58,552 nt of DNA, from positions 1 to 58,552 of the IMG/VR virus record IMGVR_UViG_3300012984_000019; one strand, written 5' to 3'. This DNA is from a virus. The stretch's first letter is position 1. Every line of letters begins with the position of its first letter. Of the stretch, positions 8,558 to 21,310 are shown piece by piece. Both the position numbers and the translations under genes were made by a program. Under the pieces are notes generated by a model that was given only the letters and a program-made list of their open reading frames with translations, searched no databases and was not told where the DNA came from.

Positions 8558-8599
8558 TGGAAGTCCTTTCCTCTAGGTGGAACAAGTATCTCATGGGCA

Positions 8600-8642: not shown

Positions 8643-8672
8643 TTGGATTGTTATGCGCGGGTCGCCCGTTTT

Positions 8673-8702: not shown

Positions 8703-8715
8703 CACCAACGGAGAG

Positions 8716-9549
8716 TTACAGTCCAGCGACCTCGTGAATGTCAGACGGGCCGTAAACGTCCTCGTCGTCGTCATCCACGAAAGCCCGAGCAATCGCAGTC
8801 TCGGTGACCTCGATCACCGTGTAGCGGCAGGTGCGAATCTTCTGCCAGCCGCAGTCCGTCGGAACGGAAACCACGTCGCGGGGGTTGATCTTCACCGTGA
8901 GCGTGGCACCCTGAGCGAAGCCCGAGGCGTAGTCCCACGTTCCAGCGTGCAGACCCGAGGCGCAACCAGTGGCCGGGTCGTGAACCACCCGCGAGCGGGC
9001 AATCTCGACAACGCTGCCGGGGTTGTTCGGAACCGCACCGTTGACGGGGATACCGTCAACAACCGCCGGTCCACGGCTGATCGACTCAAAGCCGTCAGCA
9101 GTCTTGCGAACACCCTTGTAGGCGATGAAGTCACCATCGGGGGTAATGGCGAAGTCGAAGCGACCGAGCCAATCGAACAACTGGTCCCGGCTGTGCTCGT
9201 TCGGGTTGGCGCTCGCCTTCTCAAAGAAGTTGACGAGCGGCTGCCAATCCTCCACGCCCTCATCGAGGAAGCGAAGCACCTGGCGCGTCAGAGCGTTGTC
9301 CACGGCGTCACCGTCGAAGAACAGGTTACCGCCACCGACAGTCACGCGGTCGGTCAGGCGCTCAAAGCGAGCAGCAACCGCCTTCGTGGCGTCGAAGTCG
9401 TTGGAAACGGACTCGTCACCGTCGCGCAACTTCTGCACGATGGTCGAGTAACCGGGGTGAGTGTCGTGAGCGGTGAACAGGTCACCGTCGATGATAGCAG
9501 CCGCGAACTCGCCGTTCTCGGTGCTGGTAATGCTGTATCGCATGGTCAT
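8716..9549 (-). CDS. rIIB: rIIB-like protein, 277 aa
   Basis: Matches the rIIB-like family of large phages: a central DNA-independent alpha region (VLRFLDEGVEDWQPLVNFFE) followed by the hallmark beta domain with DFAITPDGDFIAYKGVRK and, near the end, SGLHAGTWDYASGFAQG and VKINPRDVVSVP. In T4 the rIIA and rIIB proteins are membrane-associated and let the phage overcome the RexAB exclusion system of a lambda prophage; here the biochemical role is unknown. The start overlaps the rIIA-like stop (ATGA), so the pair is translationally coupled. The long open frames on the opposite strand are shadows caused by high GC. Confidence 0.85.
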   Translation of the reverse strand: MTMRYSITSTENGEFAAAIIDGDLFTAHDTHPGYSTIVQKLRDGDESVSNDFDATKAVAARFERLTDRVTVGGGNLFFDGDAVDNALTRQVLRFLDEGVEDWQPLVNFFEKASANPNEHSRDQLFDWLGRFDFAITPDGDFIAYKGVRKTADGFESISRGPAVVDGIPVNGAVPNNPGSVVEIARSRVVHDPATGCASGLHAGTWDYASGFAQGATLTVKINPRDVVSVPTDCGWQKIRTCRYTVIEVTETAIARAFVDDDDEDVYGPSDIHEVAGL

Positions 9550-11540
9550 GAAATCTCCTTGTTGGTGGCCGCGTGAACGGCGTTGATGTAAAGGGCGAAG
9601 TGTGTTGCGTCTGACCTGCTATCTCCACGGTAGCAGAGTCCGTAGCCCTTGTAAACGGTTGCGGCAGACGTACTGAGCGTGGTGGTCAGGCTCGTCATGT
9701 GGACGAGTGACCCCGAGCGCCAGCCTCGGTGAGAGAGGCCGATGTTCTGCGCTCCCTGCACGATCTTGTTCAGCGCCTTTACCTCGGCAATAGCCGTGGC
9801 ATCGGTGACGTGGTTAGCGAACGTCACCAGGGCGGGATCGTTCAGGACGATGCCAGTCTTAGCAACAGCCCGAGCAATCTCAACGTCGGTGTCGGAAGCC
9901 TTAGCAAGCACCAGGCCCGACTCCGAAAGGGTGTCCCGAGCCGTGTCGTATGCGTTCTGCAAGAAACGGTCGATGCGGACAGCGGTGGGGAAGTCACGCT
10001 CAAACTTCTCCCAGCGGTTCTTTGCGATCACCACAACGTCGTAGCCGATGCCGTGGAAGTAGGTGTAAAGGTTCTTCATGTAAAGGCGAGAGTTGTCGCC
10101 CTTCCAGTCAGACGGCGAACCGTAAACAACCTTGTTCTTGATCGCGCTCGTCTCCACCGTGGAGCCGTGCTCGTTCAGGAGGTCGTACGGGTGCGTCCGC
10201 GTCGATCCAGGCGTGCCCACCTTCGGGCTCGACGGAATCTTGACGGCCTTGATCGTGTCGAGAGGAACGACGTTGATCTGGACCCACTGGTTCGTCATGG
10301 TCGAAGCCTTGACGAAAACGAGCCGGTCGAGGTCGAGAGCGTTATCCTCGATGTAAAGGTCAGCCTTCTTCCGCTGCGTGGGGGTAGGCTTGTCAGCGGT
10401 GAAGTCCGTGATGATGAGGCTCGACGCCAGTTCCTCGGCGGAAAGCGAACGGGTCTTGTGCGTGCCACGACGCCCGTATCCGTAGCGAGCAGAGACGACG
10501 GTAAACTCGCCGTCGAAACGCTCAGGAATCGCCACACCCTTGTAGGAAAACGCCCAGGCCGACGAGTTCCAGCCGAGAGCCTTCTTCCAACGCTGCGCCT
10601 CCGAAAAGGCTTCGGCGTGAGTCTGGCAAGCAGCGATATCCGCGTTCGCCTTCTTCTCGACCTTGCCCTTTAGACCCTTCTTCACCGACTCGATGTAGGC
10701 CCGAGTCTTATTGGTGAAGTGCAGTTCCTCACGCGCAGGCGTGAAGTTGACCGAGCCAATCGGCGCGGTGACGAGAAACTTGCCGGTCGTGTTCAGACCC
10801 AGCGGGCGCTCGTAGCGGTAGGCATTCTTCTCACGGACAGGGTAAGCGACTCCACCCATGAGCAGCGTGTCCTCGTCGAGGTCGTTAGAGAGCAGGATAC
10901 CCGGCTCAATCTCGATACCCTCAATGTGCTTCGGCTCCTTGCCGTTGACGAGCACCGTGCCCTTCTCCCAAAAGCGGAAGAAGTCGTTTGCCTTCTCGGC
11001 AAGGTTGTTGCCGTGCTTCGTGGGAATGCGAATCTCCACGCCATTGTGCTCGTCGGTGGAAACAGTGTCCACGACCTCCATGACGCCGATGCCCTGAGCG
11101 TTCTTCGCCACCAGCACCGTGACCTTCACGCCATGCTTGACAGCGGTGACGGTAAAGGTCGGCGCGTAGGTGAGAGCGGACTTGCAGCCGAGGCCGAGCA
11201 TTCCGGTCTGCTCGTCAGTACCGCGCTTCGTGCTCGCGCCATACTTGGAGTAAATCTCGGTAATCTCGTCCACGGAAAGACCGATGCCGAAGTCACGGAC
11301 AATGAAGTCCTGCGAAAACGTGCCGGGGGTCTGGACCTCGATGGGACGGGTCTGACCAGCCTCGGTGTGAGAGTCGCGGGCATTGACCGAATACTCACGG
11401 ATGACCGCAGCCTCCGGGTCAGAGTAAAGGTCCGTGAGGACAGACATGAGGTGAGCCGTGGCGTTCTCGTCCAGGCTCATAGCGATCTTGTTGCCGTCGA
11501 GGTTTCCCTCAACCGTGACCTCGGGGTGTGCGGGGATCAT
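9546..11540 (-). CDS. rIIA: rIIA-like GHKL-ATPase protein, 664 aa
   Basis: N-terminal GHKL (Hsp90/gyrase/histidine-kinase) ATP-binding fold: the N-box IREYSVNARDSH has Glu49, Asn53 and Asp56; VRDFGIGLS is the G1 box with Asp83, Gly85 and Gly87; GMLGLGCKSAL (113-123) is the ATP-lid G2 box. The rest is typical of long rIIA proteins of about 650-750 residues. Works with rIIB, probably at the membrane, in protection against host exclusion or abortive systems. It is led by a promoter matching the DNA-damage RecA-NDp motif. RBS AAAGGAACTCAGG before ATG 11540. Confidence 0.88.
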   Translation of the reverse strand: MIPAHPEVTVEGNLDGNKIAMSLDENATAHLMSVLTDLYSDPEAAVIREYSVNARDSHTEAGQTRPIEVQTPGTFSQDFIVRDFGIGLSVDEITEIYSKYGASTKRGTDEQTGMLGLGCKSALTYAPTFTVTAVKHGVKVTVLVAKNAQGIGVMEVVDTVSTDEHNGVEIRIPTKHGNNLAEKANDFFRFWEKGTVLVNGKEPKHIEGIEIEPGILLSNDLDEDTLLMGGVAYPVREKNAYRYERPLGLNTTGKFLVTAPIGSVNFTPAREELHFTNKTRAYIESVKKGLKGKVEKKANADIAACQTHAEAFSEAQRWKKALGWNSSAWAFSYKGVAIPERFDGEFTVVSARYGYGRRGTHKTRSLSAEELASSLIITDFTADKPTPTQRKKADLYIEDNALDLDRLVFVKASTMTNQWVQINVVPLDTIKAVKIPSSPKVGTPGSTRTHPYDLLNEHGSTVETSAIKNKVVYGSPSDWKGDNSRLYMKNLYTYFHGIGYDVVVIAKNRWEKFERDFPTAVRIDRFLQNAYDTARDTLSESGLVLAKASDTDVEIARAVAKTGIVLNDPALVTFANHVTDATAIAEVKALNKIVQGAQNIGLSHRGWRSGSLVHMTSLTTTLSTSAATVYKGYGLCYRGDSRSDATHFALYINAVHAATNKEIS

Positions 11541-11579
11541 CCTGAGTTCCTTTCGTCGTGCTCCGTTGTGTGTAGTAGA

Positions 11580-11602
11580 AGTGTAGCAGGACCCACTGAC
11601 AG
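11580..11602 (-). promoter_or_regulatory. RecA-NDp (PafBC-type) promoter for the rIIA-rIIB pair
   Basis: Minus strand: CTGTCAGTG (11602-11594), 8 bases, TACACT (11585-11580), about 40 bases before the rIIA start. It fits the actinobacterial DNA-damage motif TTGTCRGTG-N8-TAnnnT at all but the first base. A TTACGA box lies further upstream at 11632-11637. Confidence 0.7.
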
Positions 11603-11705
11603 TTTACAAGCCCATGAAAGTGTTGACTTCATCGTAATTATGTGGTACGGCGCGGGTCGATGACGAATCGCGCGTGCCTTCGTAATTAGATCCAATGGCG
11701 CGGGG

Positions 11706-11727
11706 CGCAGGCCCCGAAGGGCCTGCG
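11706..11727 (-). terminator. terminator hairpin
   Basis: Nine-bp stem (11706-11714 with 11719-11727), 4-base loop, directly after the stop of the 11731-11997 gene on the minus strand. Followed by the GCGCGGGGCG-like and TTACGA elements seen in other intergenic gaps of this arm. Confidence 0.75.
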
Positions 11728-11730
11728 GGG

Positions 11731-11997
11731 CTACTCCATAGCCCGAACGATGACGCTCGAAGGCTCGTAGGCCGGTCGCCCCTGGTCGATGTGTGCCTGC
11801 TTGATAGCGGCAACCACATCCCTAAGAGCGCCCTTCTTCGTGCGCTTGCTGGTGATGCCGTCACGCTGGGCAACTGCCAGCGGGGAGAGGCCACGCGACA
11901 TCTTCATGCCGGTGTTGATCTCAAGTGCGAGAGAATGCGCGATGGCAAGAAGCCGAACCATGCCCACACCCTCGGGTCCTTCGATCATGACGGACAT
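11731..11997 (-). CDS. hypothetical protein, 88 aa
   Basis: ATG 11997 with GGAAGAAGG upstream. Helical protein (RLLAIAHSLALEINTGMKMS, then DVVAAIKQAHIDQGRPAY). No family recognised. It has its own promoter (TTGACA/TACACT) and terminator. Confidence 0.65.
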   Translation of the reverse strand: MSVMIEGPEGVGMVRLLAIAHSLALEINTGMKMSRGLSPLAVAQRDGITSKRTKKGALRDVVAAIKQAHIDQGRPAYEPSSVIVRAME

Positions 11998-12111
11998 TCG
12001 CCGTACCTTCTTCCTGTAGTAGAGGCGTCAGGCTATCTCTAACGTGTCTTCCCTGACGATTTGACGGATGGAGCCGGAGCCGAGAGTCCACCCGGTTGAC
12101 TTATCCAGTGT

Positions 12112-12137
12112 AGCCTACCTACACCGGGTCTGTCAAG
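12112..12137 (-). promoter_or_regulatory. sigma70-type promoter
   Basis: Minus strand TTGACA, 18-base spacer, TACACT, about 115 bases before ATG 11997. The -35 overlaps the last codons of the 39-residue gene at 12133-12252. Confidence 0.6.
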
Positions 12138-12252
12138 CCCCTGTGACCTTCCCCTGTCCGTGGAGAACGTCATCGTTAAAATCTCGTGCGTCCTGTCGGG
12201 ATGCGAAAGGTCCAAAGACCTCACCATCACACTTAACCTGCCAGAGCCTCAC
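12133..12252 (-). CDS. small hypothetical protein, 39 aa
   Basis: GTG start overlapping the previous stop (GTGA). Sequence MRLWQVKCDGEVFGPFASRQ continues with a helix (DARDFNDDVLHG). The look, a short beta pair then a helix with aromatic core, and the coupled start favour a real gene though it is below usual length cut-offs. Function unknown. Confidence 0.5.
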   Translation of the reverse strand: MRLWQVKCDGEVFGPFASRQDARDFNDDVLHGQGKVTGA

Positions 12253-12446
12253 TTGACTACCACCTCATCGTCGGGTCCGTAGAGACGACGGAAATCGTCA
12301 CCGTCATCATCATAGTATCCCACGACGTAAGTGCTCTCGTCAACATCCGAATCAGCATCAAGGGGGTTCACCTCCTCGATCATGACCTCGCGTGAGTCGA
12401 CCAGGAGCACATCATCCTCGGTCAGTTCATACGCGAACTTACGCAT
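12249..12446 (-). CDS. acidic hypothetical protein, 65 aa
   Basis: Start at ATG 12446 (MRKFAYELTEDDVLLVDSRE). Highly acidic: about a third of residues are Asp or Glu, including YYDDDGDDF. Acidic small phage proteins can mimic DNA, but no such family is recognised here. Its start overlaps the stop of the basic gene upstream, so an acidic/basic pair is co-translated. Confidence 0.6.
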   Translation of the reverse strand: MRKFAYELTEDDVLLVDSREVMIEEVNPLDADSDVDESTYVVGYYDDDGDDFRRLYGPDDEVVVK

Positions 12447-12597
12447 CCTCCCACCCGCGTCCCTTGTGCTTCGGGCTACGCTTGTAGTCGGTGGCAAGGG
12501 CGTGAGGCTGAGCGGTCGAACCCCTGCGGAGGTCCTGCACACGCTGTACCTTGTCCTTCTGCTTCTGCGGGCGCGCTCGGCGCTTGTTCTTCGTCAT
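12439..12597 (-). CDS. very basic small protein, 52 aa
   Basis: ATGA overlap with the upstream gene and overlap with the downstream one. Sequence begins MTKNKRRARPQKQKDKVQRV and ends YKRSPKHKGRGWEDA; about a third Lys/Arg, suggesting nucleic-acid or ribosome binding. Missed by standard length cut-offs. Confidence 0.6.
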   Translation of the reverse strand: MTKNKRRARPQKQKDKVQRVQDLRRGSTAQPHALATDYKRSPKHKGRGWEDA

Positions 12598-13055
12598 GCT
12601 GCGACCTTACCAGTCAGGGGGAGGGTTGTCAACCTCTCACCGTTGCGGAAAACAATCTGAGTGTCACCGACTCGGATATCACACTCGTCAACCTCAAAGA
12701 CGGAAATGCGGTACCCAACCTCGGCCAATGTGTCCTGAAAGCCTGCGAACCACTCGTGGAGGTCTGCGAGGTCGAGGAAGGCGCACACCTCGTCAGGTGC
12801 GATATCGAACAGGTTGTCACGCTGCGGCGGCGGGTGTGCGATATCGCAGTGCTCGCTGAGCATTGCCTCAGTGACCGAACGCAACTGCATCAAGAAACAG
12901 TCGTCATCGTGCCAGGGGAACTCACGGTTCATGTCCTCGTTCCACTTCTCCATCGCGGGGAAGTAGCCACAGTCGCAAATGGACTTGCTGTCCCAATGCG
13001 CCGTGTTGTAGGGACCGTGGAGGTATTGGCCGTGTTCGATGCGGAAGATTTCCAT
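12594..13055 (-). CDS. hypothetical protein, 153 aa
   Basis: ATG 13055, first gene of a five-gene run. Contains SICDCGYF, FPWHDDDCFLMQL and an acidic middle, then a beta-rich C-terminus (GYRISVFEVDECDIRVGDTQ). No family recognised. Its promoter is a clean TTACGA-type unit. Confidence 0.65.
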   Translation of the reverse strand: MEIFRIEHGQYLHGPYNTAHWDSKSICDCGYFPAMEKWNEDMNREFPWHDDDCFLMQLRSVTEAMLSEHCDIAHPPPQRDNLFDIAPDEVCAFLDLADLHEWFAGFQDTLAEVGYRISVFEVDECDIRVGDTQIVFRNGERLTTLPLTGKVAA

Positions 13056-13061
13056 GCAGAG

Positions 13062-13115
13062 AACCTATCAGCAGAGCCCCACGAAATCAAGCACCTTTCG
13101 TAACGAAAGGGTAAC
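13062..13115 (-). promoter_or_regulatory. TTACGA-type promoter with 11-bp direct repeat
   Basis: Minus strand: GTTACC (13115-13110), GTTACG 11 bases later, TTACGA (13103-13098), 7 bases, TTGATT (13090-13085), 17 bases, TAGGTT (13067-13062). Near-consensus -35 and exact phasing of the upstream box. Confidence 0.7.
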
Positions 13116-13129
13116 GCGCGCCCCGCGCT

Positions 13130-13149
13130 CGGGCGTGTTGCCACGCCCG
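13130..13149 (-). terminator. terminator hairpin
   Basis: Eight-bp stem (13130-13137 with 13142-13149), 4-base loop, shortly after the stop of the 13158-13331 gene. Confidence 0.6.
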
Positions 13150-13157
13150 CGCACGGG

Positions 13158-13331
13158 TTAGATAACCGAACCGGGAGACCGGAGCAGACAGCGACCGGTG
13201 TTAGCGTGAAGGCTAACCGTGTTCGCATTCTTGAGCCGGTTGGTACGGGTAACAGCCGAGGAATAATCCCCGGAATGCACCTTGATATCCGCGCGGCCGG
13301 TCTTACGGTTACGAGTCTTGATGATATACAA
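13158..13331 (-). CDS. basic hypothetical protein, 57 aa
   Basis: TTG start at 13331, two bases after the GP88-like stop, with AGGGGA at a good distance; the longer frame upstream runs inside the GP88-like gene. Basic beta-rich protein (YIIKTRNRKTGRADIKVHSG). Co-transcribed with the GP88-like gene. Function unknown. Confidence 0.55.
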   Translation of the reverse strand: MYIIKTRNRKTGRADIKVHSGDYSSAVTRTNRLKNANTVSLHANTGRCLLRSPGSVI

Positions 13332-13332
13332 G

Positions 13333-14079
13333 TCACTTCCCCTTTGCTGCGAATCGGATATCGGCCTTGCCATTAGGGCAAAGTCCGCAGGAAATGCACG
13401 CGCCACCGTTTACGGTAATGAGAGGAATTCGGCCCATAACCTCGGGACACGCCGCACCCGGACGGTTTCGCCATTCGCCCATCATTGCCGCACCTTCGGC
13501 GGCAGTATCGGTAAGCGTTGCGATAAGGATATCCGGGTGCTCACTGATAATCTCGTCCACCCATTCCGCATTCCCCTCGTCCACCGAAAGGTAAAGGGTG
13601 AGATTCGGAATACCGGCGAGGATATCGACGACATTGTTTCCCGGCGTGAAACTCCGAGTGTATGCCCAGAAATTCACGTCAGGGTTGGAGAGGATAACCG
13701 CAGACCATGCGCGAGCGTACGCGCGAGAAAAGAAATCCCCGTCATGGTGAATGCGGAAATCGAGCGAGGCCCCACGCTTATTAGCAGCGATACGGAATTC
13801 ACCGATAAGGTGGTTAAGCGACCGCGCGATATCATTAGCGGACGCATCCTTAACGGCGTTCCAATTCGACTCCATAACCGCGCGGAATCCCTTAAAGATG
13901 TTCTCCAATTTGCCAGCGTAGCAAACAGCCTCGCACGCGGCAGTCTGACCGGGGCACGAAAACTCCCGCCCGGAAAGCAAGCCGAAAGCGTTGCTCACGT
14001 TTGCCTGCGTTCCCGCCTTGTTTGCGGAAGGGGTCGTCTTACGGTCGGTGGACAGTCGAAGCGCGAGGGTGTTTGTCAT
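13333..14079 (-). CDS. GP88-family-like phage protein, 248 aa
   Basis: Resembles the phage family named after mycobacteriophage gene 88. Diagnostic parts: a Cys block SCPGQTAACEAVCYAGK near residue 41, the core FRIHHDGDFFSRAYARAW (about 109-126), NPDVNFWAYTRSF, and a C-terminal Cys block CISCGLCPNGK. About seven cysteines in two clusters suggest an Fe-S or zinc centre, with the HxxGDFF core as possible active site. The biochemical role of the family is not known to me. Its promoter carries the DNA-damage motif. Confidence 0.65.
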   Translation of the reverse strand: MTNTLALRLSTDRKTTPSANKAGTQANVSNAFGLLSGREFSCPGQTAACEAVCYAGKLENIFKGFRAVMESNWNAVKDASANDIARSLNHLIGEFRIAANKRGASLDFRIHHDGDFFSRAYARAWSAVILSNPDVNFWAYTRSFTPGNNVVDILAGIPNLTLYLSVDEGNAEWVDEIISEHPDILIATLTDTAAEGAAMMGEWRNRPGAACPEVMGRIPLITVNGGACISCGLCPNGKADIRFAAKGK

Positions 14080-14086
14080 GGCTCAA

Positions 14087-14110
14087 ACTATACACTAGGG
14101 GACCGACACC
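14087..14110 (-). promoter_or_regulatory. RecA-NDp-like promoter for the GP88-like gene
   Basis: Minus strand: GTGTCGGTC, 8 bases, TATAGT (14092-14087), which is 8 bases from ATG 14079. Matches TTGTCRGTG-N8-TAnnnT at the key TGTCRGT positions. A TTACGA box lies at 14145-14150. The short gap implies a leaderless or nearly leaderless mRNA. Confidence 0.6.
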
Positions 14111-14245
14111 GCGCAACCGTATCACCGGGGAAATTGTCACGGCTTCGTAACGACACGCCCGAGCGCGGCCCGCCCTGATGATCGTTGTCAATAGGGCGGG
14201 GGCAAAGATTCCTTTACCAAGAAAGGTTGGACAAAGGGTTCCAAT

Positions 14246-14267
14246 CGTCGGTGTATCCGTGTATAGT
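14246..14267 (+). promoter_or_regulatory. RecA-NDp-like promoter on the plus strand
   Basis: CGTCGGTG (14246-14253), 8 bases, TATAGT (14262-14267), 53 bases before ATG 14321. One base off the TGTCRGTG core. Drives the only plus-strand gene in this arm. Confidence 0.55.
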
Positions 14268-14320
14268 TAGTCCTGTGAGTGAGGGACACGCCCTCACCGA
14301 AAGTGAAGGGAGGGCCTGTC

Positions 14321-14545
14321 ATGGCCCGCAAGTTCCGCACCAAGTACGAGAGCCCCCGCGCTCTGCTGATCGAGAAGGGCCTGGCGAAGCCGGGTTCCGT
14401 CAAGGGTCGTTTCTCGAACGAGGGCCGTGCTCTCGTGGCCGAGGCTCGCGCCAAGGGCGTGAAGTTCGAGGCTGACAACCCCGTCGCCGCTCCGAAGGTG
14501 GAGACTCCGAAGGTCGATCTGACCAAGGCTCCCACCGAGTCCTGA
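14321..14545 (+). CDS. small protein with repeated KF-YESPR module, 74 aa
   Basis: Start at ATG 14321 with GGGAGGG upstream. MARKFRTKYESPRALLIEKG, then VKGRFSNEGRALVAEARAKG, is a single module that also forms the N-terminus of the 7888-8346 product. A Pro/Lys/Val tail follows. Alone, reversed against its neighbours, with its own promoter and terminator, and GC-rich, it could be a regulator; DNA binding is a guess from the fold-like pattern. Confidence 0.7.
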   Translation: MARKFRTKYESPRALLIEKGLAKPGSVKGRFSNEGRALVAEARAKGVKFEADNPVAAPKVETPKVDLTKAPTES

Positions 14546-14551
14546 CCACAA

Positions 14552-14580
14552 GGGGGCCAGCCTATCATGGGCTGGCCCCC
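14552..14580 (+). terminator. terminator hairpin
   Basis: Perfect 11-bp stem (14552-14562 with 14570-14580), 7-base loop, just after the stop at 14545. Confidence 0.8.
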
Positions 14581-14581
14581 T

Positions 14582-14934
14582 AGGTCCAGGGAAATCGAGC
14601 GCCGGTCGTAAACTGTTGGCGCTGCGCGCCCCGCATGAATATGCCCCTAATGGTTGCTTATGCCATTAGGGGCTACTCATGACCATATTCACTTATGCGC
14701 CATCCACAGAACGTCTCGCCTAGGTAGGTGTTCGATTACGGTGGGATATGGTAGCAGGGGCGGGACACTACTCCTCGTGTGCTACGAAACGACCGCTTCC
14801 ATCCTCGGGTAAGTGTGTTCCGATTCGTCTAGTCCCTACCTAGGAGACACGCGCTGTGAAGTTGTGGGCCCGTTTCTGAGTTGAGGTGGGCCAAGCCTCG
14901 TTCCAAGCGCAGGGGTCCACATCCCCCGCGCGCC
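14582..14934. other. structured noncoding region, about 350 bases
   Basis: No credible gene on either strand. Contains: an orphan TTACGA-N7-TCGATT on the minus strand (14593-14611) with no -10 at the expected place; a 10-bp perfect hairpin CCCCTAATGG/CCATTAGGGG (14644-14653, 14663-14672); and an imperfect inverted repeat built on CCTAGGTAGG (14719-14728) and CCTACCTAGG (14835-14844) enclosing about 106 bases with a GTAGC/GCTAC inner pair. The last looks like a folded RNA or a recombination-type site. Confidence 0.45.
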
Positions 14935-15054
14935 TCAGGACTTGGGCAGCCCCGGTGAAGCAGCAGCCACGCGAGCCATTGCTTCCCGTGCGCGCTGGGC
15001 CTTGACGGCCTTCTGGTTCGCCACGGCGGCGGCAATCTTCTCGCTGGTGTTCAT
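14935..15054 (-). CDS. small basic helical protein, 39 aa
   Basis: ATG 15054 with GAAGGAG upstream. MNTSEKIAAAVANQKAVKAQ, then RAREAMARVAAA: a single long basic helix. It has its own promoter and a downstream hairpin, so it is expressed as a single-gene unit. Below usual length cut-offs; the longer frames here are shadows. Confidence 0.6.
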   Translation of the reverse strand: MNTSEKIAAAVANQKAVKAQRAREAMARVAAASPGLPKS

Positions 15055-15086
15055 GTGACCACTCCTTCATCGGGGCTGATAGGTAA

Positions 15087-15139
15087 ACCATACACGCTGA
15101 GACCAGGGAAGTCAACAGGTGTTCGTAAAGAGAAGGTAA
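15087..15139 (-). promoter_or_regulatory. TTACGA-type promoter with 11-bp direct repeat
   Basis: Minus strand: TTACCT (15139-15134), TTACGA 11 bases on (15128-15123), 7 bases, TTGACT (15115-15110), 17 bases, TATGGT (15092-15087). Confidence 0.7.
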
Positions 15140-15156
15140 AGGTGCGCCCCGCGCCT

Positions 15157-15181
15157 CCAAGCCCTTTTGTCAAGGGCTTGG
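15157..15181 (-). terminator. terminator hairpin
   Basis: Ten-bp stem (15157-15166 with 15172-15181), 5-base loop, 17 bases after the stop of the 15198-15587 gene. Confidence 0.75.
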
Positions 15182-15197
15182 GGCGGGCTGAAATCGC

Positions 15198-15587
15198 CTA
15201 GTACGAGTTGCCGGTCAGGCGCTCACGCAGTTGGGCGAGGTCCGCATTGGTCACGCACTCGTCCACACGGTCCTTCGCCTCCTTAAGCGAGAGACCAAAC
15301 GCAGCCTTCACGTCCTTGATCATCATGATCTTACGGTACGAGGTACCGTCCTCGGTGCGGTACTCGTCCAGGTGACGGATACACCACTCCTTGACCCGGT
15401 ACTGCGGGTCCAGCAACTCCTTCTCCCAATCGGCAAGGGGGGAGCCGCTAGCCTGCGGGACATTGGACATGTCCTTTGCGCCGAGGGCCATGATCGAAGT
15501 TGCCGCACGCTCCAAGGAACGCCCGCCGAGGCCGTTGTCTGCCAGGATGCGACAGACCAGGATCGAATTCTCCACGTTGTTGATCAC
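15198..15587 (-). CDS. hypothetical protein with L7/L12-like C-terminal motif, 129 aa
   Basis: GTG start, GTGA overlap with the upstream gene. The N-terminal half is helical; the C-terminal part IMMIKDVKAAFGLSLKEAKD resembles the helix-turn core of ribosomal protein L7/L12 C-terminal domains, which recruits translation factors. Several phage and actinobacterial small proteins borrow this fold. Function here unknown. Confidence 0.6.
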   Translation of the reverse strand: MINNVENSILVCRILADNGLGGRSLERAATSIMALGAKDMSNVPQASGSPLADWEKELLDPQYRVKEWCIRHLDEYRTEDGTSYRKIMMIKDVKAAFGLSLKEAKDRVDECVTNADLAQLRERLTGNSY

Positions 15588-15772
15588 GCGTCAACCTCCA
15601 CGATGCGAACGATGCGACCGGAAACGTCGTGACGCCAGACGGTGCCCGACGGGTGGTGAATCTCGCTCCAACCGTTGACGATCAGAGTGGACAGCACCTC
15701 ACTCTCGGTCTCAAACTGCTTCGGAACGAAGCACTCGGGGGCCGGAGGCGAAACGGGCTTGATCTGGAACAC
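15584..15772 (-). CDS. hypothetical protein, 62 aa
   Basis: GTG start at 15772 with AAGGAGAG upstream. Beta-rich C-terminus (HHPSGTVWRHDVSGRIVRIV). No family recognised. First of a two-gene unit with the L7/L12-like gene. Confidence 0.6.
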   Translation of the reverse strand: MFQIKPVSPPAPECFVPKQFETESEVLSTLIVNGWSEIHHPSGTVWRHDVSGRIVRIVEVDA

Positions 15773-15799
15773 TTGACTCTCCTTGTCGTTGGTAGGTAC

Positions 15800-15852
15800 A
15801 CCGTATCAGGTATCACCCACGAAATCAAACGTCTTTCGTAACAAACAGGTAA
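15800..15852 (-). promoter_or_regulatory. TTACGA-type promoter with 11-bp direct repeat
   Basis: Minus strand: TTACCT (15852-15847), TTACGA (15841-15836), 7 bases, TTGATT (15828-15823), 17 bases, TACGGT (15805-15800). Confidence 0.75.
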
Positions 15853-15876
15853 CGAGCGCCCCGCGCTCGGGCGTGT

Positions 15877-16197
15877 CTAGTAACACGCATTCGCGGTACA
15901 GTGAGTCTTTGAGTGACCCGTACGGTTTCCGCCGTAGAGGCAAGAGTTGTGAGGCACATACACGTTGGTACGGCACTCCACGCACTCGGCAGGACGAGCG
16001 TTACGAAGGGTGTCACCCATCGTGCGAACACCGACCTGCTTCGAGACGTAGTGACCATCGGGAGAGACAGCCTTAAGGTGAACGTACTCACCGTTGGCGT
16101 CAGTGGTAATCTCAACCACCTGGAAGTCAGAACGACCGGACGGGTCGAACGAAGGGAGGGAGATAACGTCCCACTGGCTAACGGACTTGATGATCAT
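15877..16197 (-). CDS. zinc-binding hypothetical protein, 106 aa
   Basis: Start at ATG 16197 (MIIKSVSQWDVISLP). N-terminal beta domain (VVEITTDANGEYVHLKAVSP) and a C-terminal Cys/His cluster CVECRTNVYVPHNSC, then HCTANACY, fitting one zinc site. No family recognised. The single-gene unit's promoter carries a DNA-damage type motif. Confidence 0.6.
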   Translation of the reverse strand: MIIKSVSQWDVISLPSFDPSGRSDFQVVEITTDANGEYVHLKAVSPDGHYVSKQVGVRTMGDTLRNARPAECVECRTNVYVPHNSCLYGGNRTGHSKTHCTANACY

Positions 16198-16244
16198 GAC
16201 TTGCCTTTCCTGGGAGAACCGTTCTCCCTCTTGCCTGTATCCAG

Positions 16245-16308
16245 ATTCTAGCGTAGGGGTCTGACAGTTTCCCCACGAAATCAGACTCATTTCGTAACAG
16301 AAAGGTAA
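16245..16308 (-). promoter_or_regulatory. RecA-NDp-like promoter with upstream TTACGA repeats
   Basis: Minus strand: TTACCT and TTACGA 11 bp apart (16308-16292), 7 bases, CTGATT, but no -10 at 17 bases. Instead CTGTCAG (16267-16261), 10 bases, TAGAAT (16250-16245). It looks like the TTACGA design with the start point moved to a damage-type core. Confidence 0.6.
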
Positions 16309-16334
16309 CGGTCGCCCCGCCCGAAGGCGAGTGC

Positions 16335-16571
16335 TCAGTAGTCATCGTCCCATCGCTCGCCCGCGTAGGTGGGGTCGAACCAGGACGGCGGGGTGGAGGA
16401 GTCGGGGTACCGCTCACGGATCGAGTCCATCTGGGGCTGCACGCGCTCGACGTACTCGGCGTAACCCTTCTCGCAGCGGGGGTAGGACTCACCCGAGCCG
16501 GAAAGGGCCTGGTAGAACATGACCTCGCCCTCGCAGTCAGCGGGGATGGTGTGCTCGATGCAGTCGTTCAT
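16335..16571 (-). CDS. hypothetical protein, 78 aa
   Basis: Start at ATG 16571 with a full AGGAGG site. MNDCIEHTIPADCEGEVMFY, then an acidic helical part and WFDPTYAGERWDDDY. No domain recognised. Single-gene unit between a promoter and a small hairpin. Confidence 0.65.
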   Translation of the reverse strand: MNDCIEHTIPADCEGEVMFYQALSGSGESYPRCEKGYAEYVERVQPQMDSIRERYPDSSTPPSWFDPTYAGERWDDDY

Positions 16572-16595
16572 GTTTCCTCCTGGTTGGTTGAGCCA

Positions 16596-16637
16596 ACAGT
16601 AACACACGGCACCGACAAAATCAAACAGGCTTCGTAA
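16596..16637 (-). promoter_or_regulatory. promoter matching both TTACGA and RecA-NDp designs
   Basis: Minus strand: TTACGA (16637-16632), 7 bases, TTGATT (16624-16619), 17 bases, TACTGT (16601-16596). The spacer holds TTGTCGGTG, exactly 8 bases before TACTGT: a perfect TTGTCRGTG-N8-TAnnnT. Confidence 0.8.
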
Positions 16638-16664
16638 TGACACGCCCGACCGCGCCCCGCGCAC

Positions 16665-16686
16665 CCTGCCCTTTGTCAAGGGCAGG
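16665..16686 (-). terminator. terminator hairpin
   Basis: Nine-bp stem (16665-16673 with 16678-16686), 4-base loop, just after the stop of the 16698-16952 gene. Confidence 0.75.
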
Positions 16687-16697
16687 AGCGAGGTTTC

Positions 16698-16952
16698 TCA
16701 GAAGTCGTAGGGGTTGTCTGCCGGGTAGTGCATGGGGCCGTCGCAGAGTTCGCGCGACAGGCCGTGCTCGCAGGTTGCCATTTCAGCCCAGAAGTCGATG
16801 GTGTCGTTGATCGTGGGGATGGCCTCGCCCTGCAGAACGTCGACCTCGAAGTCACCCAGCAGGTGCTCCGGCACGAAGCGGGAGAACTCAGCGGACTCAG
16901 CATCGACCGGGGGAGTGTCGACGTGGGCGGGGATGACGCGGACGTTGCTCAT
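16698..16952 (-). CDS. acidic hypothetical protein, 84 aa
   Basis: Start at ATG 16952 with AGGAGG upstream. Acidic (HVDTPPVDAESAEFSRFVPE) with a C-terminal Cys pair (ATCEHGLSRELCDGPMHYP). No family recognised. Single-gene unit. Confidence 0.6.
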   Translation of the reverse strand: MSNVRVIPAHVDTPPVDAESAEFSRFVPEHLLGDFEVDVLQGEAIPTINDTIDFWAEMATCEHGLSRELCDGPMHYPADNPYDF

Positions 16953-16978
16953 GATGTGCCTCCTGGTTGGGTAGGTAG

Positions 16979-17009
16979 AGTCTAACACAGAATCGCCGTC
17001 CCGTGTCAA
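16979..17009 (-). promoter_or_regulatory. sigma70-type promoter
   Basis: Minus strand TTGACA (17009-17004), 19-base spacer, TAGACT (16984-16979), then 26 bases to ATG 16952. A TTACGA box is present at 17038-17043 but not in the 7-base register. Confidence 0.6.
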
Positions 17010-17083
17010 CAGAAACGCCGGGGAAATTCGCCGTCATTCGTAATCGCCGGAAACGCCGCGCCCCGCCCCGAAGGGCTAGCCTC

Positions 17084-17233
17084 TCAGTAGTCGTCGCAGG
17101 CGTAGTCACCGTTGGCGTGGTCACAGAACGCGTGGGGGTTCTTGCGGGGGTCGAAAGCGTCGGGCTCGTCGTACCACTCGCGCGTGCAGGGGTCAGACGG
17201 GGTGTGGCCGCAGCAGGGGTAGTCTTCACACAT
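17084..17233 (-). CDS. Cys-rich small protein, 49 aa
   Basis: ATG 17233 with AAGGAGAG upstream. MCEDYPCCGHTPSDPCTREW, then HAFCDHANGDYACDDY: six Cys and two His, a likely small zinc site. Not in standard ORF lists because it is short. Single-gene unit with a good promoter and a small hairpin after the stop. Confidence 0.6.
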   Translation of the reverse strand: MCEDYPCCGHTPSDPCTREWYDEPDAFDPRKNPHAFCDHANGDYACDDY

Positions 17234-17263
17234 GGCGCTCTCCTTGGTTGAGGTGATGCTCGA

Positions 17264-17305
17264 ACTCTACCACACGACTCTGACAAAACTTCGGCGCGGT
17301 CGTAA
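17264..17305 (-). promoter_or_regulatory. promoter matching both TTACGA and RecA-NDp designs
   Basis: Minus strand: TTACGA (17305-17300), 7 bases, GAAGTT (17292-17287), 17 bases, TAGAGT (17269-17264). The spacer starts TTGTCAGAG with TGTCAG exactly 10 bases before the -10. Confidence 0.7.
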
Positions 17306-17334
17306 TGAGGTTCAAGAGCGCGCCCCGCCCCTTT

Positions 17335-17550
17335 CTAAGGGAGAGTCTGGATGAGGTCGAACAGGTTCAGGAACTTGTCCGGGTTGGGACGAAGGGTTCG
17401 AGTGATGATCCACCTGTACCCGAAGTGACCTTCCCTGACAGCCGCGATCCTGGTAACGGGACCGTAGTCACTCACGGCCTCGAAGATGTTGGGATTGGCG
17501 GTCTCGAAGATGGAGTAGTTGCCGATGCGGGCAAGCGGTGTGTTCTGCAT
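17335..17550 (-). CDS. hypothetical protein, 71 aa
   Basis: ATG 17550. Beta-rich start (RIGNYSIFETANPNIFEAVS), central GHFGYRWIITR and a helical C-terminus. No family recognised. Lies 14 bases after the phosphatase gene and is probably co-transcribed with it. Confidence 0.6.
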   Translation of the reverse strand: MQNTPLARIGNYSIFETANPNIFEAVSDYGPVTRIAAVREGHFGYRWIITRTLRPNPDKFLNLFDLIQTLP

Positions 17551-17564
17551 GACTCGAACCTACC

Positions 17565-18050
17565 CTAGACGTGGTCGGGTGTCAAGATACCGGCGAGTTC
17601 TTCGAGAGGTGTCGCGTCCCAACCAGGAACAACCTCCACGTCGATTCCATGCTCTTTCCACATGGCGATCACATGGGGGTTGTCATCGTAGGCAAGTACG
17701 GGGTTGAGGTTCGAGGCTCTGATCTCTTCGAGAATCTCGATCTTTACGTCTCGATCCTTGCGCCGGTCTCCCCAGGGCCTCATGTACATAACGTCATAGG
17801 GGACCTTGTACTTGTCAAGCCAATCCTCTGTGACATCACGGTACTTCTCATCCCTTGCGGTGACGATGGTGATGTGGTATCCGTCAGAGGCATGACCCTG
17901 TGCTGCTTCGAGCACATCGTAGTTGGGTGGGCACCAGAGGGAGGCCTTGTGGAATGCGTCGAAGTTCTGATTGTCCCCACGCACATAATGACGGATTGCC
18001 TGTACGTCGCACAGGGTACCGTCCATATCGAAGATAATGGTGTTTCTCAT
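17565..18050 (-). CDS. HAD-family phosphatase, polynucleotide kinase 3'-phosphatase-like, 161 aa
   Basis: Haloacid-dehalogenase fold: motif I FDMDGTL with nucleophile Asp8 and Asp10; motif II in ITIVTARDEKYRDVTEDWL; motif III AYDDNPHVIAMW. The TARxxxxxxxTExWL segment is typical of the phosphatase half of T4 polynucleotide kinase and relatives, which remove 3' phosphates from nucleic acid ends. No kinase domain (P-loop) is fused here, so this is a stand-alone phosphatase; a partner kinase or ligase may lie elsewhere. An mRNA- or tRNA-repair role is an inference. Confidence 0.8.
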   Translation of the reverse strand: MRNTIIFDMDGTLCDVQAIRHYVRGDNQNFDAFHKASLWCPPNYDVLEAAQGHASDGYHITIVTARDEKYRDVTEDWLDKYKVPYDVMYMRPWGDRRKDRDVKIEILEEIRASNLNPVLAYDDNPHVIAMWKEHGIDVEVVPGWDATPLEELAGILTPDHV

Positions 18051-18056
18051 CTACCC

Positions 18057-18098
18057 ATCCTAGCATGTAGACCCTGACGAATCAAGGGGCGATCATAA
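18057..18098 (-). promoter_or_regulatory. TTACGA-type promoter (TTATGA variant)
   Basis: Minus strand: TTATGA (18098-18093), 7 bases, TTGATT (18085-18080), 17 bases, TAGGAT (18062-18057), then 6 bases to ATG 18050: predicted leaderless. Confidence 0.65.
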
Positions 18099-18185
18099 TA
18101 TAAGGGAACGTAGCGCCTCGCTAGTCCCAGGAAACTTAACCCTTGTCGTAACATAAACGTCTTGGGTCGCTTGCGACACAACTAC

Positions 18186-18246
18186 TTGCACGGGCAAAGG
18201 TTGCACCTGCAAAGGTTCTGTCGGAAACACTTGCAGGTGCAACCTT
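18186..18246. repeat. triple GTTGCAC-type repeat forming a 16-bp hairpin
   Basis: TTGCACGGGCAAAGG (18186-18200) is followed directly by TTGCACCTGCAAAGG, and the second unit is inverted at 18231-18246. AAGGTTGCACCTGCAA (18197-18212) pairs perfectly with 18231-18246 across an 18-base loop. It lies just after the last gene of the 19079-18258 run, so it may be a terminator, but the extra direct copy suggests protein binding. Confidence 0.6.
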
Positions 18247-18257
18247 CCCCTATGCAA

Positions 18258-18350
18258 CTACCCTCCGATCCAATAGGTTATCGGAATGAGATATCCGATA
18301 GCGAAACCGATGAATGCGATAACCGCATATCCGCGAAAGGTGATTCGCAT
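18258..18350 (-). CDS. tiny membrane protein, 30 aa
   Basis: TAATG overlap with the upstream gene. MRITFRGYAVIAFIGFAIGY continues LIPITYWIGG: almost entirely one transmembrane helix with a basic start. Far below usual length cut-offs; the coupled start and clean hydrophobic pattern support it. Confidence 0.5.
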   Translation of the reverse strand: MRITFRGYAVIAFIGFAIGYLIPITYWIGG

Positions 18351-18571
18351 TAGATCCCCTCAGGGTAGAGAATGACACGCGCATTACGGCGAATGGACCG
18401 GGTGCGAATACCCTTTCCTGTGTTGATATCCGCATATGTCACGCGGATATCCCGAATGTCACTAACCGCATATTCGACATTCACAATGCGAACATAGCGG
18501 GTAGCCTTAGGCAGCAATACCCTATCCCCTACCCTCACCCATGCGGCGGGTGAGGTCGGAAGGGTAATCAC
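18350..18571 (-). CDS. hypothetical protein, 73 aa
   Basis: GTG start overlapping the upstream stop. Beta-strand-rich (VRVGDRVLLPKATRYVRIVN), basic (RTRSIRRNARVILY); an SH3- or OB-like barrel is plausible. No family recognised. Confidence 0.6.
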   Translation of the reverse strand: MITLPTSPAAWVRVGDRVLLPKATRYVRIVNVEYAVSDIRDIRVTYADINTGKGIRTRSIRRNARVILYPEGI

Positions 18572-18861
18572 GCGTCACCCATGACACAGTCAAGGGTCAT
18601 GCAACGCATGTTCTGGTTCATCATCCCGTAGGCACCGCATACGGGGCAGCGGTCATCCTCGCGCATGGCTTTCATGTTGGCATAGGCAGCGTACCCTGCC
18701 GCCATAGCGTCCGACTCCCACCCGTCACAGTCGGGGCAGATATCGGAGTCATCATCCATGACTAGGACAGGGGTTCCGCATTCGTGACCCCTACAGGGGA
18801 GCGTGTAGACAATCTCAGGCTCCCAATTGTGGGCAGCGTAGGTATCGGTGAGGATGAACAT
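18568..18861 (-). CDS. double zinc-ribbon-like protein, 97 aa
   Basis: Two Cys sets: CRGHECG with ICPDCDGW, and RCPVCGAYG with MRCMTLDCV. Each set resembles a four-Cys zinc ribbon. Part of a four-gene coupled run (19079 to 18258). Function unknown. Confidence 0.65.
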   Translation of the reverse strand: MFILTDTYAAHNWEPEIVYTLPCRGHECGTPVLVMDDDSDICPDCDGWESDAMAAGYAAYANMKAMREDDRCPVCGAYGMMNQNMRCMTLDCVMGDA

Positions 18862-19079
18862 TAGATCCCCTTCACAGAGTCGAGAGTGACGTGTGCGATA
18901 ACGTCATCCTCACGGCCACGGTAGGTCATGCGTCCGTCAATGCGAACGCGCACGGTAGCCACGGTGGACACGCTAGGCATCCACGGGCAGGGGACGGACG
19001 GGAAGGTTTCGAGGATAGTACCCTCTCGACCCTGCCATGCGAACGTGTGAACGGTGACCCGCTCTCCGATGTTGACCAT
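18861..19079 (-). CDS. hypothetical protein, 72 aa
   Basis: ATG 19079 with GAGAGGAAA upstream; first gene of a four-gene unit. Beta-rich with KOW/SH3-like pattern (GERVTVHTFAWQGREGTILE, then ATVRVRIDGRM). Resembles small barrel proteins often found in phage genomes. Confidence 0.6.
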   Translation of the reverse strand: MVNIGERVTVHTFAWQGREGTILETFPSVPCPWMPSVSTVATVRVRIDGRMTYRGREDDVIAHVTLDSVKGI

Positions 19080-19114
19080 TTCGTTTCCTCTCGCTCTGTG
19101 TTTCCGACTCCGTC

Positions 19115-19167
19115 AGACTATCATCGGACACTGACAGAATCGGGCAGATTAGGTAACGGGAAGGTAA
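19115..19167 (-). promoter_or_regulatory. promoter matching both designs
   Basis: Minus strand: TTACCT twice, 11 bases apart (19167-19151), 7 bases, CCGATT (19143-19138), 17 bases, TAGTCT (19120-19115). The spacer contains CTGTCAGTG exactly 8 bases before the -10, a RecA-NDp match. Confidence 0.7.
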
Positions 19168-19249
19168 AGAATATGGGCGCACTATCAAGATCAACAATTC
19201 GCAGGGATGGCTGGATCATACATCTAACCGAAAGTTTGCAAAATGTCAA

Positions 19250-19498
19250 TTATGAAAGATGATCTTGGTATGTTCCTTTGATGATGACGTGGGGATCGGG
19301 TGGGAGCCAGTATGGGTAGTCTTTGAGTATGACGTGACTGACGACATCGGAGCGTACACGTCCTTCGGGGATGTTAAAGTCGATTTTCGGTGAGTACCAC
19401 CAATCAACAACAAGATCATCTTCTACAACGATGATTCTGTACATCAAATTGTCGTTGAGATCACCACAACTGATGATTCTACGAGATTTTACGCTCAT
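19250..19498 (-). CDS. hypothetical protein, 82 aa
   Basis: Last gene of the long 22924-19250 minus-strand run; starts inside the previous gene. Beta-rich (YRIIVVEDDLVVDWWYSPKI). No family recognised. Confidence 0.55.
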   Translation of the reverse strand: MSVKSRRIISCGDLNDNLMYRIIVVEDDLVVDWWYSPKIDFNIPEGRVRSDVVSHVILKDYPYWLPPDPHVIIKGTYQDHLS

Positions 19499-19682
19499 GG
19501 CCCGGTAGTCCTAGTCCTGGGAAGCCTATAATCTCGTCTGATTCCAATACTAGAGTCTCATACGCCTTATGTGATGCTTCTGCTCTTGCGATTTCCTCTG
19601 GATTACCTCGTAGACGTGCTTGTCCTAGTTCTCTGGCAAGACGGAAGAGAGTTTCCATTGAGGTGATGATCTTGATAGGCAT
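19479..19682 (-). CDS. hypothetical protein, 67 aa
   Basis: ATG 19682 with AGGAGA upstream. Helical (TLFRLARELGQARLRGNPEE, then IARAEASHKAYETLV). No family recognised. Confidence 0.6.
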   Translation of the reverse strand: MPIKIITSMETLFRLARELGQARLRGNPEEIARAEASHKAYETLVLESDEIIGFPGLGLPGHERKIS

Positions 19683-19689
19683 ATTTCTC

Positions 19690-19866
19690 CTAGAAATCCG
19701 TTACAGCGTGTGACGTGAAGTCACAGAACGTGTTCATACAACGCAATGTGTAACCATTACCGTTGCCCGGTGTGAAGAAGTATTTGATCTGCCCTCCGCA
19801 GGAGGGACAGCGGACAGAATGTCCGTCCTTAAACAGGTAATCCTTCTCACTTATCGTGTAAGGCAT
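19690..19866 (-). CDS. zinc-ribbon protein, 58 aa
   Basis: Start at ATG 19866, with GGAGAG upstream inside the end of the previous gene. SVRCPSCGGQIKYFFTP, then LRCMNTFCDF gives a CxxC...CxxxxC ribbon. Function unknown. Confidence 0.6.
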   Translation of the reverse strand: MPYTISEKDYLFKDGHSVRCPSCGGQIKYFFTPGNGNGYTLRCMNTFCDFTSHAVTDF

Positions 19867-20113
19867 CAATCTCTCCATATACATCGTATGGTCTGTCGGA
19901 AACCTCATCAAGGTGGCTAACGACGTAGGGTGTGTGATACCTTAACAACTCTTGAGCCCAAGACTGAGCCCTTTTCAGCATAGCATCGGCGCTCTCATTA
20001 GGTCGGAGTCTCTCGATAACCATGTCTAGACGTTCTTCTAGGTCATATACTTCCCACCATACCTGGCCCTCTTTATCACCGGGCCGGATTCTGAACGTAA
20101 ATCTAGGACCCAT
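19847..20113 (-). CDS. hypothetical protein, 88 aa
   Basis: Start at ATG 20113 with GGAAGCAG upstream. Beta-hairpin N-terminus (FTFRIRPGDKEGQVWWEVYD) and helical remainder. No family recognised. Confidence 0.6.
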   Translation of the reverse strand: MGPRFTFRIRPGDKEGQVWWEVYDLEERLDMVIERLRPNESADAMLKRAQSWAQELLRYHTPYVVSHLDEVSDRPYDVYGEIDALHDK

Positions 20114-20360
20114 CTGCTTCCTCCAATGCTGGTTCAGGAGCAAAAACCTTACCCGCTTCATGCTGCTCGTACATAGCACTCACAGCGTCCGCAGACTGCC
20201 CTGTAGCAATTGCGAACAGCAAGTCGTAGTTACGCTGCTGGTCGATGTGATTTATTAGCAGAAGGTCATGGATGCGTTCCAGCAACTCGATACCAGCAGC
20301 CTGCGCTGGCGTCAAATGATTCTCAGACTTCTTCGGCTCATCCTCGTTAATGTCAAACAT
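20103..20360 (-). CDS. hypothetical protein, 85 aa
   Basis: TAATG-type overlap with the upstream gene. Acidic helical protein (QAAGIELLERIHDLLLINHI) with charged ends. No family recognised. Confidence 0.6.
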   Translation of the reverse strand: MFDINEDEPKKSENHLTPAQAAGIELLERIHDLLLINHIDQQRNYDLLFAIATGQSADAVSAMYEQHEAGKVFAPEPALEEADGS

Positions 20361-20818
20361 TAGTGTCCTCTCGCGGAGCCGAGACGAATGTGATCCTCGA
20401 CAACCTTAGCAATATCAGTGTCATCCGTCTTAGGGACAAACACATTGGCGATAAACGTATCACCACTACCTACTTTTTCAGGGTTGTCCACCCCGCTAGT
20501 CAGATTCATGATGTGCGTATCGGGAGAGATACCACCACGAACACCAGGACCATACGGGTGAGGGTGATATGGAGGGGCTGCAATCGCTTCCGGCTCGATG
20601 TAGAACTCCACCTCAAAACCGGCGTTCAAAAGCGCACTGAGGTCCTTTACGATCTCAGCCAGCGTCTTACCACTCGTTGTATACTTCACCTTACTCAATG
20701 TAGGCTTCACCTCATCCAAATCTTCAAGTGCTATATCTACCATATTGAATCTCAATTTCTGCAGGCGGTCCCGCAACTGATTCTGTGCGTCGACCTCATC
20801 CATCTGCTCAGTCGTCAC
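20360..20818 (-). CDS. hypothetical protein, 152 aa
   Basis: Helical N-terminus (QNQLRDRLQKLRFNMVDIAL), a central region with PPYHPHPYGPG, and acidic C-terminus. No family recognised. An equally long open frame on the opposite strand is a shadow. Confidence 0.6.
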   Translation of the reverse strand: MTTEQMDEVDAQNQLRDRLQKLRFNMVDIALEDLDEVKPTLSKVKYTTSGKTLAEIVKDLSALLNAGFEVEFYIEPEAIAAPPYHPHPYGPGVRGGISPDTHIMNLTSGVDNPEKVGSGDTFIANVFVPKTDDTDIAKVVEDHIRLGSARGH

Positions 20819-21062
20819 TAGACTTCCACCCCTTTAAGTCTGCGGCAATATAGCCAACCATACGATTGACCTCTGCCTTTACGTCAACCATCTGACCCTT
20901 ATCAATCTCGTAGTCAAGGCGCAACTTCTCACCACGATGGGTAAAGAACACCTGGAACTCTATGGCAGACTTAGCCTCACGGTACTGAAAGAAAGCACTA
21001 GAGCCCGAGACTCGGCGCTCAATCTCTCTACAGACCTGATACCCATAAGTGTGCTCGTCCAT
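20808..21062 (-). CDS. hypothetical protein, 84 aa, paralogue of the 21062-21310 product
   Basis: MDEHTYGYQVCREIERRVSG then SSAFFQYRE. It shares the start MD--xYxYxVxRxxE, the GSSAF turn, a beta-rich middle and the ending VxYxxAD with the upstream gene, so the two are a tandem duplication. Function unknown. Confidence 0.65.
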   Translation of the reverse strand: MDEHTYGYQVCREIERRVSGSSAFFQYREAKSAIEFQVFFTHRGEKLRLDYEIDKGQMVDVKAEVNRMVGYIAADLKGWKSSDD

Positions 21063-21310
21063 TACGACTCATAATCCGCAACGACATAATCGACCGTAGC
21101 CGTTACATCACTCGTGTCATAATCAATCTTACCGGGCTCCACGTCGAACGTCAACTGTAAGCGCGACTTCCCCGAAGTGTCATCAGGGGCCAGGTCCACC
21201 GTCACAGTAAACTCCTCGTCACGCGCACGCACAGGGGCGAAGGCGCTAGAGCCTGTGATCGCAGCCTCGACAGCGCGCTCCACAGCATAAGCATATTCAT
21301 TTACATCCAT
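21062..21310 (-). CDS. hypothetical protein, 82 aa, paralogue of the 20808-21062 product
   Basis: MDVNEYAYAVERAVEAAITG then SSAFAPVRA, acidic, beta-rich. TAATG overlaps on both sides. Tandem copy of the next gene with diverged sequence, suggesting they form a heteromer or have specialised. Confidence 0.65.
   Translation of the reverse strand: MDVNEYAYAVERAVEAAITGSSAFAPVRARDEEFTVTVDLAPDDTSGKSRLQLTFDVEPGKIDYDTSDVTATVDYVVADYES

Follow-up and report, generated by a model that had tools for sequence, protein, structure and literature searches.

The window analysed here is the complete 58,552-nucleotide (58.5 kb) stretch of the virus record IMGVR_UViG_3300012984_000019, whose early region carries seven short elements resembling RecA-NDp promoters, a class found at actinobacterial repair genes and associated with the activator PafBC. 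The RecA-NDp consensus is quoted in PMC5656591, citing Gamulin 2004, as tTGTCRgtg, 8 nucleotides (nt) and TannnT. PafBC is a host activator with which sigma A polymerase uses promoters containing a -26 element; the PafB domain touches this element, and PafBC occupies the place of the -35 contact of sigma domain 4 (PMC11804915). Window positions 4043-21540 (17.5 kb) match IMGVR_UViG_3300012985_000010 at 100% identity. That record continues for 17.9 kb past the window end, and the analysed DNA comprised the window plus this extension (76.4 kb). We searched with a core pattern, TGTCRG-N10-TANNNT, and a strict 23-mer, TTGTCRGTG-N8-TANNNT. Gene limits, and hence intergenic limits, come from our own calls, the small genes being delimited by eye and with a rough model. 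All seven sites proposed in the initial annotation were recovered at the same positions and with the same sequences, each directly upstream of a gene, and they are listed here with one further promoter.

11580-11602, minus strand: RecA-NDp/PafBC-type promoter of rIIA, CTGTCAGTG-N8-TACACT
14087-14109, minus strand: RecA-NDp-type promoter of the GP88 gene, GTGTCGGTC-N8-TATAGT
14245-14267, plus strand: RecA-NDp-type promoter of the gene at 14321, TCGTCGGTG-N8-TATAGT, one mismatch
16245-16267, minus strand: RecA-NDp-type promoter, ACC variant, of the gene at 16197, CTGTCAGAC-N8-TAGAAT
16596-16618, minus strand: perfect RecA-NDp promoter match, gene at 16571, TTGTCGGTG-N8-TACTGT, with a -35 TTGATT at 17-bp spacing
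17264-17286, minus strand: RecA-NDp-type promoter of the gene at 17233, TTGTCAGAG-N8-TAGAGT
19115-19137, minus strand: RecA-NDp-type promoter of the gene at 19079, CTGTCAGTG-N8-TAGTCT
15800-15822, minus strand: further promoter, gene at 15772, with a -35 TTGATT and a -26 near match, TCGTGGGTG (7/9)

The genes under or near these promoters are as follows.

9546-11540, minus strand: rIIA-like gene, 37% identical over its full length to rIIA of Streptomyces phages by tblastn
8716-9549, minus strand: rIIB-like gene, overlapping the end of rIIA (PHROG 609, E 5e-57)
13333-14079, minus strand: GP88-family gene (Pfam PF17338, E 2e-40)
14321-14545, plus strand: small gene without a Pfam match
15877-16197, minus strand: small gene under the 16245 promoter, without a Pfam match
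16335-16571, minus strand: small gene under the 16596 promoter, without a Pfam match
17084-17233, minus strand: small gene under the 17264 promoter
18861-19079, minus strand: small gene under the 19115 promoter, with only a weak Pfam match

The TGTCRG core is exact in six of the seven sites, the plus-strand site at 14245-14267 having the single mismatch. A -35 box is weak or absent at most of them, the TTGATT at 16596 being a fair one; this comparison is biased inside the window, since it was the -35 that revealed the promoters lacking TGTCRG. At the GP88 promoter (14079-14109), the -10 lies only 7 nt ahead of the ATG, and the mRNA may therefore be leaderless.

The strict 23-mer occurs once, against 0.01 expected, and at up to three mismatches the whole window holds 113 matches versus 75 +/- 8.7. 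On both strands of the 76.4 kb, TGTCRG-N10-TANNNT was found nine times, six of them inside the 2,709 bp that make up the early intergenic DNA; the other spacings from 0 to 25 gave 0-3 occurrences each across the window and extension. A count against shuffled sequence, which the initial annotation had proposed as a check, supported the claim: the six sites in early intergenic DNA compare with a mean of 0.024 and a maximum of 2 in 5,000 dinucleotide shuffles. Intergenic DNA contains seven TGTCRG words, and at six of them TANNNT stands exactly 10 nt downstream (binomial P ~4e-11). No further site at up to one mismatch was present in the 17.9-kb extension.

The comparison across related phages, likewise suggested at the outset, showed that the motif recurs in uncultured relatives belonging to at least 22 DNA clusters. 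A scan of IMG/VR with the correct spacing returned at least 120 stretches, and a control with 5-nt spacing returned 116 in a complete scan; the two sets differ in the content of their loci. Because the loci were fetched by the motif itself, the site counts that follow are not a survey of its frequency. Among the matches listed, 80 loci contained 272 TGTCRG-N10-TANNNT sites, compared with 21 in control loci, and in the same 80 loci the other spacings from 6 to 14 gave 2-12 each and spacings 15-16 gave 24-28. A secondary peak at spacing 5 was also seen in the real loci (L139-L218; 57 TGTCRG-N5-TANNNT). Each of 38 whole contigs had 3-22 sites (control, 0-3), for the most part on a single strand and within one block, and many relatives hold 10-20 sites per contig; at least 35 loci, in 22 DNA clusters, have 4-19 sites, with 303 distinct sites altogether. 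These 303 sites are conserved outside the search pattern as well, with an AT-rich triplet just upstream and TGG (39%) or ACC (25%) after TGTCRG. An extended -10 (TGn before the -10) occurs in 55% of the relatives' sites, and a TTGA -35 at 17-18 bp in ~12%, leaving 88% without TTGA there. An open reading frame begins within 110 nt downstream of 252 of 269 representative sites. GP88 homologues, ~45% identical to that of the window, are present in 15 of the relatives' loci, and the promoter lies directly upstream in 12 of these, as it does at 14087. Proteins under the relatives' promoters include the GP88, DUF932 and DUF1281_C families, the majority having no Pfam family, and none of 89 such proteins belonged to a PADLOC defence family.

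The same pattern stands ahead of actinobacterial DNA-repair genes. Scanning GTDB contigs for the motif together with a Shine-Dalgarno word gave, among the matches listed, actinobacterial names on 57 of 80 loci by our own count. Six actinobacterial genomes (Bifidobacterium left aside) contain 2-11 strict sites each, against one control site in all of them, and the genes just downstream of host sites include recA (in two genomes), uvrA, uvrB, a uvrD-type helicase, dnaX, an AP endonuclease and a DUF222 protein. By a count of our own addition, 150 genomes sampled as the phylum of an Arthrobacter contain ~170 strict sites versus 14 in the control, and HTH_PafC was above cut-off in 10 of 10 sampled genomes with at least three sites; the taxonomy of this sample is not given, and it is accorded supporting weight only. 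A strict site upstream of recA was found in none of 28 small-genome species, a result that says little, as their taxonomy is not given. Like the RecA-NDp/P1 promoters of the mycobacterial PafBC regulon (recA P1 and others), the window sites consist of tTGTCRgtg, 8 nt and TANNNT, with a -26 element that would stand in for the -35, and the variants TGTCAGTGG and TGTCAGACC occur in both. Assignment to the RecA-NDp class, as first proposed, is well supported by this agreement in consensus, spacing and host context. Variants of the kind that the initial annotation had called partial occur in hosts: TTGTCAGACC-N7-TANNNT, the form at 16245 (TGTCAGACC variant), was found 31 times in 15 sampled genomes (17 in one; control 0), and forms with C, G or A as the first base, as at 11580, 14087 and 19115, were found at 69 sites in seven genomes versus 2 in the control. 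Judged from these counts, the partial sites are variants also used in hosts. The two sets differ in that the RecA-NDp/P1 promoters are actinobacterial and lie at repair genes, whereas the phage sites precede actinophage early genes without assigned function; moreover, the relatives carry 10-20 copies in roughly 12 kb, often with a CRP-type site upstream in helical phase, and the phage -10 is nearer to TATAAT.

The promoter-bearing group very probably infects actinobacteria, and the host of the window virus is placed only through its relatives. This follows from three observations: 372 of 373 phage records matching GP88 come from phages of mycobacteria or Streptomyces; 9 of 9 contigs of at least 80 kb encode WhiB, which PMC10202952 describes as exclusive to Actinobacteriota; and in one promoter-bearing contig the terminase shares 53-54% identity with those of Streptomyces phages (Stanwilliamsviridae).

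Taken together, the sequences suggest, with good though not full confidence, that the seven sites are RecA-NDp (PafBC) promoters of the host type, from which an actinophage transcribes part of its early takeover block (rIIA/rIIB, GP88 and small genes). The relatives probably start much of their takeover programme in the same manner, through the damage-sensing activator of the host. Binding of single-stranded DNA to the WYL domains, by which PafBC is activated, was shown in 2025 (PMC11804915), and recA P1 drops in a pafBC deletion under standard conditions, indicating some PafBC activity without added damage (PMC5656591). Infection, through replication, recombination or host DNA breakdown, would produce single-stranded DNA that loads the WYL domains of host PafBC. 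The activated PafBC and RNA polymerase-sigma A would then assemble at the phage promoter, where the PafB domain would read TGTCRG at -26 instead of a -35 box, and transcription of the gene would start from TANNNT. Basal PafBC activity would serve without damage and higher activity once single-stranded DNA is present; since infection supplies this DNA, expression would follow damage and increase with the progress of replication and of host DNA breakdown. The rIIA and rIIB of T4 are thought to counter exclusion systems, and expression timed in this way would suit such genes, which is speculation on our part. An activator with a WYL domain encoded by the phage itself was considered and rejected, as no WYL domain was found in the 14 phage records screened, the window included, some of which are fragments. 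The reader would therefore be host PafBC, which appears the simplest candidate.

Several points weigh against a PafBC-driven takeover block. If the genes of the block are the very first to be expressed, PafBC may not yet be active. A -35 box is also present at the ~12% of relatives' sites mentioned above and at 16596, and ClgR is reported, in work cited in PMC5656591, to recognise the same host promoter P1. In 17 other phage records, of which 16 are actinobacterial and which include distant relatives with GP88 and rIIA (one Vibrio phage record is left out of the count), there was no enrichment, with 12 sites versus 13 in the control. The motif is likewise absent ahead of GP88 in Yaboi, Enygma, Wakanda and D29, and from these two results we conclude that the promoter trait is lineage-specific. 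The early regions of the Stanwilliamsviridae illustrate this: Streptomyces phages Yaboi and Enygma resemble the window in that GP88 lies among the small genes of a minus-strand block, close to thymidylate synthase, but they show no enrichment of TGTCRG-N10-TANNNT and their GP88 promoter lacks the motif. Loci found via ribonucleotide reductase and portal genes, outside which the early region mostly lies, gave the strict motif 10 times versus 11 and TGTCRG-N10 20 times versus 19 expected.

The CRP-type sites of the relatives extend the proposal. The palindrome TGTGA-N6-TCACA was found 88 times in relatives (L144, L150, L142 and others), versus 0-2 at other spacings, and its distance upstream of TGTCRG clusters at 34, 44, 54 and 64 bp; for the 51 non-redundant pairs, a Rayleigh test gave p ~1e-10 at a period close to 10 bp. 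Such helical phasing would be the pattern expected of a CRP/GlxR-type activator on one face of the helix. None of these palindromes is present in the window. We tentatively suggest, at somewhat under even confidence, that a group of uncultured actinophages drives its takeover genes from composite promoters combining host PafBC, as a sensor of single-stranded DNA at -26, with a CRP/GlxR-type protein bound upstream in helical phase. If so, host damage and nutrient signals together would form an infection sensor and timer, and an activator of the phage's own would be unneeded.

Among the alternatives, the one that survives best, although we regard it as unlikely, is that a phage activator outside the WYL family, or a factor binding TTACGA-N11-TTTCCC, reads the -26 word, the resemblance to host promoters being convergent or a relic. 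It draws on a second repeated element of the early region.

7378-18151, minus strand: region with ~15 copies of TTACGA-N11-TTTCCCNGG in a single orientation

The 5' ends of TTACGA lie at 18151, 17305, 17043, 16637, 16297, 15841, 15128, 14611, 14150, 13103, 11637, 8642, 7514, 7485 and 7403, and 14 copies were counted at up to two mismatches versus 1 expected. The element is conserved in relatives, with 22 and 24 occurrences at gaps of 11-12 and 0-3 at other gaps, where copies are sometimes in tandem, ~33 bp apart (L212, L223). It could be an operator, a stoperator-like site or a replication iteron. At five window promoters its start lies exactly 36 nt ahead of the -10, so that it overlaps the promoter, a fixed register that speaks for a factor of this kind; at two of the five, 16596 and 17264, the TGTCRG word falls inside its right half, which covers the -26 region. 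This overlap, together with the fair -35 at 16596, means that some of the promoters may be hybrids able to work without PafBC. Helical phasing of the element to the -10 was rejected, the offsets (36, 47, 52, 58 and 59) being too irregular. The element was also rejected as an explanation of all sites, and this tells against the alternative as well: at four of the seven (11580, 14087, 14245 and 16245) the -26 words are separate from it. In addition, host repair promoters share the N10 spacing as well as both alternatives, A/G and TGG/ACC.

That PafBC is the wrong host regulator, the reader being ClgR or a PafBC paralogue, seems improbable to us. The cited report of ClgR at P1 and the several HTH_PafC-like proteins of large actinobacterial genomes would allow it, but P1 induction in M. 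smegmatis is gone without pafBC (PMC5656591) and PafB is seen on the -26 motif in the solved initiation complex described in PMC11804915. We consider it quite improbable, too, that these are plain constitutive sigma A promoters, to which TGTCRG contributes little and whose genes are on from entry; good -10s, the extended -10 of the relatives and the -35 boxes in their minority fit this, whereas the exact TGTCRG spacing is held across divergent phages and the great majority of sites lack TTGA at -35. Chance matches within promoter-rich intergenic DNA, a notion fed by the many coding-region matches that appear in the window once three mismatches are allowed, are refuted by the shuffle and spacing controls (6 observed versus 0.024 expected) and by the hundreds of sites in relatives, and are hardly credible.

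No report of PafBC promoters in phages was found in the literature searched. In the known LexA-controlled phage genes, a repressor, LexA, is removed, and this SOS-linked control mostly serves prophage induction. Host PafBC promoters in phages would similarly tie phage transcription to the host DNA-damage response, but through a host activator rather than removal of a repressor. In T4, MotA/AsiA takes over from the -35 contact and recognises an element at about -26 to -30. The proposed phage promoters resemble this arrangement in using an activator in place of the -35 contact and an element in that position; T4, however, encodes both factors, whereas here a host factor would serve, given the lack of WYL factors in the 14 phage records. 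If phages do put 10-20 takeover genes under PafBC, the host would register infection as DNA damage, to the advantage of the phage, and PafBC would become a factor deciding phage success. The promoter motif also offers a sequence tag by which members of this phage group can be recognised and their early genes annotated.

Two other proteins of the window gave domain matches. Positions 17565-18050, in the early block, encode a polynucleotide-kinase-type HAD phosphatase (PF25109), and positions 15198-15587 a 129-residue protein that partly matches, over 27 residues, the C-terminal domain of ribosomal L7/L12 (PF00542). No repressor or integrase turned up among those window genes that were searched. 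Between convergent gene blocks, at ~7160-7520, three TGTGGATAA words resembling DnaA boxes lie beside three TTACGA elements, and this segment may be a replication origin.

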